DNA of 64,000 bases from Betaproteobacteria bacterium (GTDB taxonomy: Bacteria; Pseudomonadota; Gammaproteobacteria; Burkholderiales; Usitatibacteraceae), in NCBI GenBank assembly GCA_016791265.1, contig JAEUMY010000007.1, positions 186,001 through 250,000 of the forward strand, given 5' to 3'. The notes below the pieces were generated by a model. That model had not been told where the DNA came from. It saw nothing but the letters and a program-made list of their open reading frames with translations, and ran no database searches. Of this stretch, positions 2,517 through 63,306 are shown in pieces. The translations under genes were made by a program, and so were the position numbers. How positions within the stretch are numbered: the first letter of the stretch is position 1; every line of letters starts with the position of its first letter.

Positions 2517-3650
2517 ATGAGCGAATATTCGCAATCCCAATCCGTCGGCATCGTCGCCCCGCAGACCGCGCGCTTTTCCGAGCCGCTGGCCTTGCGCTCG
2601 GGCGCGTTTCTGGCGGACTACGAGCTGGTCTACGAAACCTACGGCACGCTCAATGCGGATCGCTCGAATGCCATCCTCATCTGCCACGCGCTGAATGCTT
2701 CACACCACGTGGCCGGCACCTATGCCGATGAACCGGACAACGTCGGCTGGTGGGACAATATGGTCGGCCCCGGCAAACCGGTGGACACCAACCGCTTCTT
2801 CGTCGTCGGGGTGAACAACCTCGGTTCATGCTTCGGCTCCAGCGGCCCGCTCTCCATCAATCCTGCGACCGGCAAGGCCTGGGGGGCGGACTTTCCGCTG
2901 GTGACGGTGGAAGACTGGGTGGATGCCCAGGCCCGGCTCGCTGATCATCTCGGCATCGCGAAATTCTGCGCGGTCATGGGCGGCAGCTTGGGCGGCATGC
3001 AGGCGCTCTGCTGGTCCATCCGCTATCCGTCACGCGTGGCGCATGCGCTGGTCATCGCGGCGGCACCCAACCTCTCCGCACAGAACATCGCGTTCAACGA
3101 AGTCGCGCGCCAGGCCATCCTGTCCGATCCGCAATTCTCCGACGGCCACTTCAGCGAGAAGGGCGAGAAGCCGCGCCTGGGTCTGCGCGTGGCGCGCATG
3201 ATCGGCCACATCACCTATATCTCCGACGAACAGATGGCGGAAAAATTTGGCCGCCAGTTGCGCGAAGGCCTCAAGTTTTCCTTCGCGCCCGAGTTCCAGA
3301 TCGAGTCCTACCTGCGCTATCAGGGCGACAAGTTCGCGGAGTACTACGATGCCAACACCTATCTTCGGGTGACGAAGGCACTGGATTATTTCGATCCGGC
3401 TGCCGAGCACGGTGGCAGCTTGGCGAAAGCGCTGGCACCGGCGTCAGCAAAGTTTCTGGTCGTGTCGTTCACCACCGACTGGCGCTTTTCGCCTGAGCGC
3501 TCGCGCGAGATCGTGAAGGCGCTCATCGACAATCGCCGCGACGTGGCCTACGCGGAAATCGCAGCACCCAATGGACACGACGCATTCCTGCTGGAGGATC
3601 CGCGTTACCTCGCGACAGTACGCGCCTACTTGAACAGGGCCATGTCATGA
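2517..3650 (+). CDS. metX: Homoserine O-acyltransferase MetX
   Basis: The product of about 377 residues is an alpha/beta hydrolase that acylates homoserine in methionine synthesis. The nucleophile elbow appears as MGGSLGGMQALCW, preceded by NNLGSCFGSSGP, and the catalytic His/Asp end as NGHDAFLLED near the C-terminus. Whether acetyl- or succinyl-CoA is used cannot be told reliably. The ATG at 2517 is chosen because family members start close to this point; the reading frame extends upstream to 2493 without support. The palindrome GCGAATATTCGC occupies codons 2-5 (SEYSQ). It overlaps metW by 4 bases. Confidence 0.96.
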   Translation: MSEYSQSQSVGIVAPQTARFSEPLALRSGAFLADYELVYETYGTLNADRSNAILICHALNASHHVAGTYADEPDNVGWWDNMVGPGKPVDTNRFFVVGVNNLGSCFGSSGPLSINPATGKAWGADFPLVTVEDWVDAQARLADHLGIAKFCAVMGGSLGGMQALCWSIRYPSRVAHALVIAAAPNLSAQNIAFNEVARQAILSDPQFSDGHFSEKGEKPRLGLRVARMIGHITYISDEQMAEKFGRQLREGLKFSFAPEFQIESYLRYQGDKFAEYYDANTYLRVTKALDYFDPAAEHGGSLAKALAPASAKFLVVSFTTDWRFSPERSREIVKALIDNRRDVAYAEIAAPNGHDAFLLEDPRYLATVRAYLNRAMS

Positions 3651-4231
3651 GCATCCGCCGCGACTACTCCGTCATCGCCGACTGGATCAATCCGGGCTCG
3701 CGCGTCCTGGACCTGGGCTGTGGCGACGGCACGCTGTTCAAGCTGCTCGCCGACACGCGCCAGGCAACGGGCTACGGCATCGAAATCGATGACGACAAGA
3801 TTCCGCTGTGCATTGCCAACGGCGTCAACGTGCTGCAGCGCGATCTCGAAGGCGGGCTGCGCGACTTCGACGACCAGTCATTCGATTGCGTGATCTTGTC
3901 GCAGACGCTGCAGGCCATGCGCCACACCGAGCTGGTGCTGACGGAAATGCTCCGCATCGGGCGCGAGGCCATCGTGACCTTCCCCAACTTCGGCTACTGG
4001 CACGTGCGCATGCAATTGCTGATGGGCCGCATGCCCGTGTCCGACGACCTGCCCTACCAGTGGTACGACACGCCCAACGTGCACCTCTTCACCATCGCGG
4101 ATTTCGATGCGTTGTGCGAGAAGAAGGGCTATCGCGTGATTTCTCGGCAGGTGCTCGCCGGGGATACGCCCGTTATTGCGCTTGCGAATATTCGCGGGTC
4201 ACTGGCGATGTATCGGCTGACGCGATCATGA
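3647..4231 (+). CDS. metW: Methionine biosynthesis protein MetW
   Basis: A 194-residue protein with a class I SAM-dependent methyltransferase fold: VLDLGCGDGTLFKLL is the SAM-binding motif I. MetW proteins are regularly encoded with metX in proteobacteria and are reported to act together with it in methionine synthesis. Its ATG overlaps the metX stop (ATGA). A palindrome copy near the 3' end encodes ANIR at residues 183-186. A small membrane protein gene overlaps the stop codon in turn. Confidence 0.95.
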   Translation: MSIRRDYSVIADWINPGSRVLDLGCGDGTLFKLLADTRQATGYGIEIDDDKIPLCIANGVNVLQRDLEGGLRDFDDQSFDCVILSQTLQAMRHTELVLTEMLRIGREAIVTFPNFGYWHVRMQLLMGRMPVSDDLPYQWYDTPNVHLFTIADFDALCEKKGYRVISRQVLAGDTPVIALANIRGSLAMYRLTRS

Positions 4232-4398
4232 GCATCGAAAGGCTTGCCAAACTGTTACCGCCGATCGGATTTCTGCTTGGCGTTGCTGGGTATGCACTGG
4301 CCGAGCACGTAAGCTGGGACGGTTTCGTTTTCTACACTGGCTGCGTCTTCATTCTTGTCGGCGCAGTACTAAGGGCATACCTGCACTTCAGGAAGTAG
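4228..4398 (+). CDS. Small two-helix membrane protein
   Basis: A 56-residue ORF whose ATG overlaps the metW stop codon (ATGA). Two hydrophobic segments are visible: LLPPIGFLLGVAGYAL and FYTGCVFILVGAVL, joined by a short polar loop containing WDG. The C-terminus is basic (RAYLHFRK). I do not recognise the family. Coupling to metW suggests it is expressed, but without homologues it could be a chance ORF. It ends 11 bases before the converging ABC-F gene. Confidence 0.5.
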   Translation: MSIERLAKLLPPIGFLLGVAGYALAEHVSWDGFVFYTGCVFILVGAVLRAYLHFRK

Positions 4399-4409
4399 CA
4401 ACGACAGAA

Positions 4410-62804: not shown

Positions 62805-62810
62805 CAGCAC

Positions 62811-63275
62811 CTATATGTAATCCAGCGGCAACGCCGTCGTCGACTTCAGCTTCTCCATCGCGAAGCTCGAACTCACGTCGGTCAGCTCCACGCTCTTGAT
62901 GAGCTTCTTGTACACCGCGTCATAGCCTGCGATGTCGGGCACAACCACGCGCAAGAGATAGTCCACGTCGCCGCTCATGCGATAGACCTCGACGATTTCA
63001 GGGATGCTGCCCACGGCCTTGGCGAATTTCTCCAGCCATGCGGGGTTGTGCTGGCTTGTGCGGATGGCGACGAATGCGGTCACGCCCAGGTTGAGCTTGG
63101 ATGCGTCCAAGAGCGCCACACGGCGCTGGATCACGCCGGCCTCGTCCAACTTCTGGATGCGTCGCCAGCAAGGCGTGACCGAGAGATTCACCTTCTCCGC
63201 GATGTCCGCCACGGAGAGGCTGGCATCCTGCTGAAGCAGGGCAAGGATTTTTCGGTCAACGGCGTCCAGAGTCAT
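62811..63275 (-). CDS. Lrp/AsnC family transcriptional regulator
   Basis: A 154-residue regulator: an N-terminal helix-turn-helix (DRKILALLQQDASLSVADIAEKV, NLSVTPCWRRIQKL) and a C-terminal RAM effector domain (VEVYRMSGDVDYLLRVVVPDI). ATG 63275 gives the standard MTLDAVDRKIL start. It is convergent with the sulfate operon. Its target is not evident; self-regulation is usual in the family. A palindrome lies 20 bases upstream of the start. Confidence 0.94.
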   Translation of the reverse strand: MTLDAVDRKILALLQQDASLSVADIAEKVNLSVTPCWRRIQKLDEAGVIQRRVALLDASKLNLGVTAFVAIRTSQHNPAWLEKFAKAVGSIPEIVEVYRMSGDVDYLLRVVVPDIAGYDAVYKKLIKSVELTDVSSSFAMEKLKSTTALPLDYI

Positions 63276-63294
63276 CGTGTACTCGCGAATATTC

Positions 63295-63306
63295 GCATTG
63301 GTAGAA
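63295..63306. repeat. GCGAATATTCGC palindrome in the lrp promoter region
   Basis: A perfect copy 19 bases upstream of the lrp start codon. It directly precedes an AT-rich stretch (AAAAATATTCTAC) that may hold the promoter. Confidence 0.9.

Follow-up and report, generated by a model that had tools for sequence, protein, structure and literature searches.

A highly iterated 12-bp palindrome in a betaproteobacterial genome, tentatively interpreted as a target of a dimeric DNA-binding protein

The window analysed here, a stretch of 64,000 nucleotides from Betaproteobacteria bacterium (Usitatibacteraceae; GenBank assembly GCA_016791265.1, contig JAEUMY010000007.1, positions 186,001 to 250,000 of the forward strand), carries gatB, earP and genes for a PBP2-like transpeptidase, malate synthase, a molybdopterin nitrate reductase (NasA), an EF-Tu-type GTPase and a solute-binding protein. 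Scattered within and between its genes is the word GCGAATATTCGC, a perfect mirror-image palindrome of 12 bp, with 32 perfect and seven one-mismatch copies; in 100 dinucleotide shuffles of the window, copies with at most one mismatch numbered 0.17 on average and two at the maximum. A sequence-only reading had pointed out these copies, and all of them are present. Its start positions were exact except for three, those given as 4194, 63295 and 21644 being 4184, 63285 and 21643. It had also remarked that the word cannot give strand direction as Chi and KOPS (FtsK-orienting polar sequences) do, and indeed a perfect palindrome has no strand asymmetry; strand is accordingly a dot in the list of copies that follows.

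2521..2532, strand., perfect copy, near the start of predicted gene 2517-3650
4184..4195, strand., perfect copy, within predicted gene 3647-4231
6645..6656, strand., one-mismatch copy, first base differs
7255..7266, strand., perfect copy, intergenic
9347..9358, strand., perfect copy, within gatB
9405..9416, strand., perfect copy, within gatB
10732..10743, strand., one-mismatch copy, first base differs
13259..13270, strand., perfect copy, intergenic
14308..14319, strand., perfect copy, within predicted gene 13396-14334
16350..16361, strand., perfect copy, within the PBP2-like transpeptidase gene
18016..18027, strand., perfect copy, within predicted gene 17848-18849
18451..18462, strand., perfect copy, within predicted gene 17848-18849
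20062..20073, strand., one-mismatch copy, first base differs
21318..21329, strand., one-mismatch copy, first base differs
21643..21654, strand., one-mismatch copy, last base differs
22384..22395, strand., perfect copy, within predicted gene 21939-22880
23368..23379, strand., perfect copy, intergenic
24063..24074, strand., perfect copy, within predicted gene 23481-24563
24976..24987, strand., one-mismatch copy, last base differs
25347..25358, strand., perfect copy, intergenic
27218..27229, strand., perfect copy, within the malate synthase gene
27373..27384, strand., perfect copy, within the malate synthase gene
30516..30527, strand., perfect copy, intergenic
30653..30664, strand., perfect copy, intergenic
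36177..36188, strand., perfect copy, intergenic, 60 bp past tRNA-Ala
40900..40911, strand., perfect copy, within earP
42251..42262, strand., perfect copy, intergenic
45771..45782, strand., perfect copy, intergenic
48929..48940, strand., perfect copy, within the NasA gene, encodes RIFA
49447..49458, strand., one-mismatch copy, internal base differs; the encoded EYS is common to proteins P0002-P0008
49905..49916, strand., perfect copy, within the NasA gene, encodes ANIR
51882..51893, strand., perfect copy, within predicted gene 51549-52364
52215..52226, strand., perfect copy, within predicted gene 51549-52364
54706..54717, strand., perfect copy, within predicted gene 54651-55391
54786..54797, strand., perfect copy, within predicted gene 54651-55391
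56813..56824, strand., perfect copy, within the EF-Tu-type GTPase gene
58522..58533, strand., perfect copy, near the start of the solute-binding protein gene
62556..62567, strand., perfect copy, within predicted gene 62297-62758
63285..63296, strand., perfect copy, intergenic

Close to the last palindrome, at window positions 63378-63433, lies a perfect 7-bp tandem repeat (TCCCCAG, eight copies).

The window understated the extent of the phenomenon. The whole source assembly (G000; 24 contigs, 89.93% complete, 63% G+C) contains 1,624 exact copies in 3,937,828 bases, a mean of 0.41 per kb (about 400 per Mb), and no occurrence of a control word, the 12-mer read backward without complementing. 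Near-copies and gene context were counted in 834 kb of the genome (about 21%, window included). At zero, one, two and three mismatches we observed 370, 57, 45 and 343 copies, where Markov models of orders 1-3 with the sites masked predict 0.069-0.076, 2.7-2.9, 42-46 and 388-427, and an unmasked model of order 2 predicts 0.10, 3.5, 51 and 440. The over-representation claimed from the window thus held against a Markov model, the perfect word being in excess about 5,000-fold and one-mismatch copies about 20-fold. There was no excess at two mismatches (370/57/45 against about 0.07/2.8/44), which points to sharp recognition.

The symmetry extends beyond the 12 bp, as the sequence-only reading had noticed. 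Across 203 sites, A occupies the first outward position in 64% of half-sites and the second in 40%, against a background of 18%; little signal is left past four bases, and the extended symmetric consensus, TTGCGAATATTCGCAA, is about 16 bp long. The preference for A is found in intergenic and coding copies alike, more weakly in the frame class with the fewest sites. Of the 57 one-mismatch copies, 31 deviate at an outermost position, and, with the flanks grading from 64% to 40% A, specificity appears to fall off outward and symmetrically, as in the footprint of a dimer; we infer that the word is recognized by a protein dimer. At its centre the word accounts for most occurrences of AATATT: 38 of the 39 such hexamers in the window sit within CGAATATTCG, and 203 of 244 in 448 kb sit within the 12-mer.

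An assembly artefact, which would have refuted the observation, is an unlikely source of the copies, because they occur on all 23 contigs sampled (of 24), many are read in frame within conserved genes, and residues encoded by them recur in proteins from other public sources. With genes called by a simple codon-score script, so that gene borders are approximate, 211 of the 370 copies (57%) were coding, in 689 kb, with 113, 44 and 54 copies in the frames that encode ANIR, EYS and RIFA. The remaining 159, outside predicted genes or across gene ends, occupy about 145 kb, a density 3.6-fold above coding. This intergenic preference, and the 4-bp hairpin into which the 12-mer can fold, would suit an operator, a terminator, an RNA hairpin or the scar of a mobile element. 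We nevertheless consider any of these highly unlikely: gaps between genes are equally dense whatever the gene orientation (per kb, 1.20 in co-directional gaps with 85 sites, 1.13 in divergent with 32 and 1.24 in convergent with 25; 142 sites classed), none of the eight sites counted against a relative (below) shows an insertion, and none of six symmetric double changes was complementary. This last result also argues that the word acts at the level of DNA, not RNA.

A bias towards origin or terminus, for which the sequence-only reading had suggested plotting the copies, was rejected, the word being comparably present around both dif and dnaA. At C19:83626 a dif-like site, with one mismatch to what we take to be the dif pattern, coincides with a change in GC skew; 39 copies lie in the 80 kb around it (C19:20-100 kb), and the dnaA contig has 59 in 155 kb. 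Sites of SlmA, Noc and MatP are 12-14-bp palindromes bound by dimers, occur in tens of copies, and either avoid the terminus or are restricted to it. The word resembles them as a short palindrome fit for a dimer, but the density around dif largely refutes a nucleoid-occlusion or terminus-domain site of this type, which we regard as very improbable. An extra ParB or Noc protein as reader of the word was also rejected: a search for the ParB-type helix-turn-helix (HTH_ParB) matched only one gene in the genome, about 9 kb from dnaA.

One long stretch is free of the word. In the 63.9 kb at C19:92676-156565, just beyond dif, there are no copies, against about 26 expected from the genome mean. This 64-kb metal-resistance island, with a Tn3 transposase, an Mrr nuclease, KfrA, AcrB-family and CusB-type efflux genes, P-type ATPases and a multicopper oxidase, was apparently acquired. 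In the core DNA, that is, with the island left out, the pooled spacing of copies is suggestive of evenness, with a variance-to-mean ratio of 0.61 at 20 kb (p 0.011) and 0.40 at 30 kb (p 0.001), against 1.15 in simulation. Two other features of the contigs were seen along the way: an 18-mer recurring every 126 bp in nine copies at C2:96504-97512, a period divisible by three, and a 109-base followed by a 96-base homopolymer run opening contig C9 (1-209), probably an assembly artefact.

How the copies arose was examined in relatives. The 149 relatives compared, 27 of them from the same family and none from the same genus, carry 0-9 copies each, with a family maximum of four, and in 15 family genomes, sampled over 18-400 kb each, no comparable iterated palindrome was among the top-ranked words listed. 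We aligned homologous genes of Usitatibacter palustris (G003; tblastn identity of at least 45%). At all eight sites counted the motif itself aligns gap-free, and one of the eight has a gap in its flank; a ninth alignment, with a one-codon gap inside the word, was left out of the count. Over the eight sites, U. palustris matches 48 of 96 motif columns and 285 of 472 flank bases. Because these sites align without a gap, the word seems to replace local sequence in place, also at the cost of amino-acid changes. An origin by insertion or from a mobile element was rejected for the same eight sites. Repetitive extragenic palindromes or bacterial interspersed mosaic elements (REP/BIME) and elements like miniature inverted-repeat transposable elements (MITE) were likewise discarded, since 57% of copies are coding, no insertion is seen, and little signal extends past four flanking bases.

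Protein searches reveal close relatives that are absent from the genome sets compared, and in these the residues encoded by individual sites are retained. The four closest relatives of NasA (80-82% identity) keep RIFA (4/4) and ANIR (4/4); in the next 15 aligned matches neither is found (0/15 and 0/15). ThiL has three ANIR sites, and a clade of 12 relatives in its tree (64-71% identity, support 96/97; 13 tree rows, including P0134 and not P0133) keeps ANIR in 34 of 36 cases. Among the 106 outgroup proteins the site windows are 22-29% identical, with ANIR in two, none and none of 106. In the 11 nearest matches (P0122-P0132, picked after their ANIR residues had been seen, P0133 and P0134 being left out) the sites reach an identity of 0.98-1.00, and identity stays at or below 0.80 in 61 other windows of equal variability in the outgroup. 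P0133 keeps ANIR at none of the three sites and P0134 at two, so that the top 13 matches together retain 34 of 39. We infer that ANIR and RIFA in these relatives reflect the same DNA word. Because the site-encoded residues stay fixed in the proteins of relatives, the sites are probably old and individually maintained.

Substitution in place is also what would be expected of a palindromic DNA uptake sequence (DUS), for which a competence receptor would prefer word-bearing DNA and recombination of the DNA taken up would restore and spread the word. The sites lie in permissive places and in all frames, and the word is missing from the 64-kb island, as expected from the depletion of DUS and uptake signal sequences (USS) in acquired islands. 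The genome total falls in the range of DUS (943 to 4,265 in two genomes, PMC3630211), and the dyad-symmetric simDUS/kingDUS of Simonsiella offer a precedent (PMC3630211). The spectrum of near-copies fits less well. Exact to one-off copies stand at 1:0.15 here, against 1:1.15 and 1:1.45 for the DUS given in PMC3630211, and an excess at two mismatches like that of N. gonorrhoeae (0.65) would amount to about 73 copies, where 45 are seen; the weaker halo of the H. influenzae USS is compatible with these 45 against 42-46 expected. As fragments carry several sites, the drive on any single one should be weak. A prepilin-motif scan of the proteins predicted in the 834 kb gave no match, no search having been aimed at receptor or competence genes. 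On this evidence we consider uptake somewhat unlikely, yet a serious contender.

Another process that would act in place is the one proposed by Elhai for the highly iterated palindromes (HIPs) of cyanobacteria, in which methylation of the palindrome biases mismatch repair and near-misses ratchet to the perfect word. In its favour, one-off deviations from HIPs are described as concentrated at the ends (PMC4390886), and the ends vary most here too. According to the same source, every cyanobacterial genome with highly over-represented words encodes one or more putative methyltransferases that could methylate the word (PMC4390886). We searched four families in this genome, which is 90% complete; MT-A70, Eco57I and others were outside the search. 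PF02086 and PF01555 had no match. PF00145 returned one C5 methyltransferase; its neighbours are Vsr, GmrSD-like and NOV_C genes, and the 9.4-kb stretch that they share (C21:116227-125666), adjoining polA, is low in G+C and free of the motif. PF02384 (N6_Mtase) returned one type I HsdM, in a defence-type cluster (C12:87805-94745) with a RAMA/GIY-YIG protein, an AbiEi/AbiEii pair, a reverse transcriptase and PRTase-CE; neither HsdR nor HsdS was among the eight open reading frames scanned there. With their defence-type surroundings, neither enzyme looks like an old, core, orphan methyltransferase, and none other was found in these families, so the solitary methyltransferase put forward by the sequence-only reading found no support. 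Nor does the one-mismatch spectrum (57 copies) contain a cytosine-deamination hot spot. We judge methylation with biased repair to be improbable. The Vsr gene (C21:117484-117687) lies one gene from the C5 methyltransferase, and very-short-patch repair by this pair could be imagined to create the word. Because Vsr repair restores C at T:G mismatches, however, it cannot enrich the AATATT core, most of whose occurrences sit in the word (203 of 244, as above), and the C5/Vsr stretch is itself low in G+C and has no copies; there is hardly any chance that this is the explanation.

We looked for the word beyond these relatives. A scan of a collection of 84,980 species, which may leave out the window's own genome and those near it, for two copies 4-34 bases apart found eight loci, and the seven genomes counted had two or three copies each; no second carrier is thus visible among the 149 relatives or by this pair scan. 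Two Eisenbergiella genomes both carry a pair of 12-mers 29 bp apart (L079:5736-5776 and L081:2654-2694), possibly an operator. In viral contigs there were no close pairs of the 12-mer, and the 14-mer form was found in 102 stretches. Among these, two related phage contigs (IMGVR 3300022666_000335 and 3300044712_000897), which have an FtsK-like gene in common, carry the exact 20-bp palindrome ATCTGCGAATATTCGCAGAT in three and two copies, respectively (L157:2284, L194:7663 and L175:12197; L165:2342 and L173:8456). The exact copies are dispersed, with no near-copies in the phage DNA examined, and make up a set that resembles stoperators and has this 12-mer as its core. Two further viral contigs each have two 12-mer copies exactly 294 bases apart (L174:929 and 1223; L245:3702 and 3996).

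Taken together, the results lead us to favour, tentatively and at a little under an even chance, a highly iterated chromosomal palindrome whose copies arose by point substitution in place and are kept one by one as the predicted sites of a dimeric, sequence-specific DNA-binding protein. Copies would arise without insertion; each would be a site for such a DNA-binding or DNA-acting protein working along the whole chromosome; and losing a site would carry a local cost, for chromosome organisation or for repair, through which mutated copies would be purged or restored. This reading fits best because the word is read sharply, its symmetry reaches about 16 bp, it occurs irrespective of gene orientation and chromosome position, it is absent from the island, and it is apparently frozen site by site. 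Of the ideas put forward in the sequence-only reading, the likeness to the cyanobacterial HIP1 and the dimeric-protein site are the ones that fit best; the self-propagating conversion bias that it also proposed would take the form of the uptake or repair drive considered above, at the probabilities given there.

Several points weigh on the other side. A protein that binds the word was not found in this analysis, and the sole ParB-type helix-turn-helix gene sits where the gene of a conventional ParB would be expected. The 45 copies at two mismatches would also be compatible with a slight excess, at most about 0.3 of the expectation. The evenness of spacing gives p 0.10 at 5 kb and 0.14 at 15 kb, is not significant in contig C2 alone, and disappears in 19 separate 20-kb pieces, for which the variance-to-mean ratio, worked by hand, is about 1.0. 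The evidence of conservation comes from proteins rather than from the DNA of relatives, and it is uneven: SelA keeps two of its three sites in an 86% relative, one of three in a 76% relative and none of three in the third match. Finally, a drive based on methylation or uptake would give many of the same patterns.

A bolder proposal, which we think rather less probable than the site itself, is that a betaproteobacterial clade has evolved its own genome-wide address mark. This would be a palindrome of 16 bp, recognized in an all-or-none manner and, over deep divergence, defended at each position by an undescribed class of chromosome protein or editing process; on this view HIP1 would exemplify a general way of marking chromosomes that has been invented repeatedly. 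Whatever the agent, the strictness of the word and its persistence site by site make selection testable against a repair or uptake drive, and a word of this length could readily serve as bait in pull-downs of the protein responsible.

Among known systems, the DUS of Neisseriaceae are similar in copy number and in their origin in place, and a dyad form is known. DUS and USS are considered to originate in place through point mutation (PMC1939737, PMC3630211), and in Simonsiella 1,294 simDUS/kingDUS form overlapping dyad pairs, which according to the authors may indicate dimer-based recognition (PMC3630211). One-off copies are far fewer here (1:0.15), and the clear halo of near-misses of the neisserial DUS is missing: over-representation at zero to three mismatches is given as 392, 4.8, 0.65 and 0.34 for the DUS of N. 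gonorrhoeae and as 183, 2.0, 0.22 and 0.07 in H. influenzae (PMC1939737, Table 1), values comparable with ours in shape only, as the null models differ. Another dispersed short palindrome without an assigned role, AACCGTT..AACGGTT of Caldithrix abyssi, has 38 exact copies, essentially intergenic according to its authors, and a strand-related centre (PMC5317091). The sites of SlmA, Noc, MatP and ParB are, like the word, palindromes of 12-16 bp fit for a dimer; the word differs in its many times greater copy number and in having no ori/ter bias.

The closest likeness is to the HIPs. HIP1 (GCGATCGC) was described in 1995 and, to our knowledge, is still without an agreed function. HIP1 and the alternate HIPs share with the word a single strict palindrome spread across genes and intergenic DNA, ends that vary most, and no settled function. 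In the open-licence literature we found no account of the word as a genomic motif, none by title treating it as a genomic repeat, in agreement with the sequence-only reading, and no strict genome-wide HIP outside cyanobacteria. The density is about 400 per Mb here and about 500-2,500 per Mb for HIPs (PMC4390886). The word is longer (12-16 bp against 5-8 bp), its AATATT core is unrelated, and it occurs in a betaproteobacterial lineage, in the family of U. palustris. The HIP1 10-mer in Synechocystis, with observed and expected counts of 5648/5, 1830/160 and 5212/2244 at zero, one and two mismatches (PMC1939737, Table 6), has an excess at two mismatches that the word lacks, the null models again being different. 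The word therefore belongs with the HIPs in kind and is not HIP1 itself, being longer and stricter. A second, independent iterated palindrome in a very different lineage makes it possible to compare a carrier with close non-carriers (the 27 family genomes, with 0-4 copies), and its comparison with HIP1 allows a search for the features that the two systems have in common.

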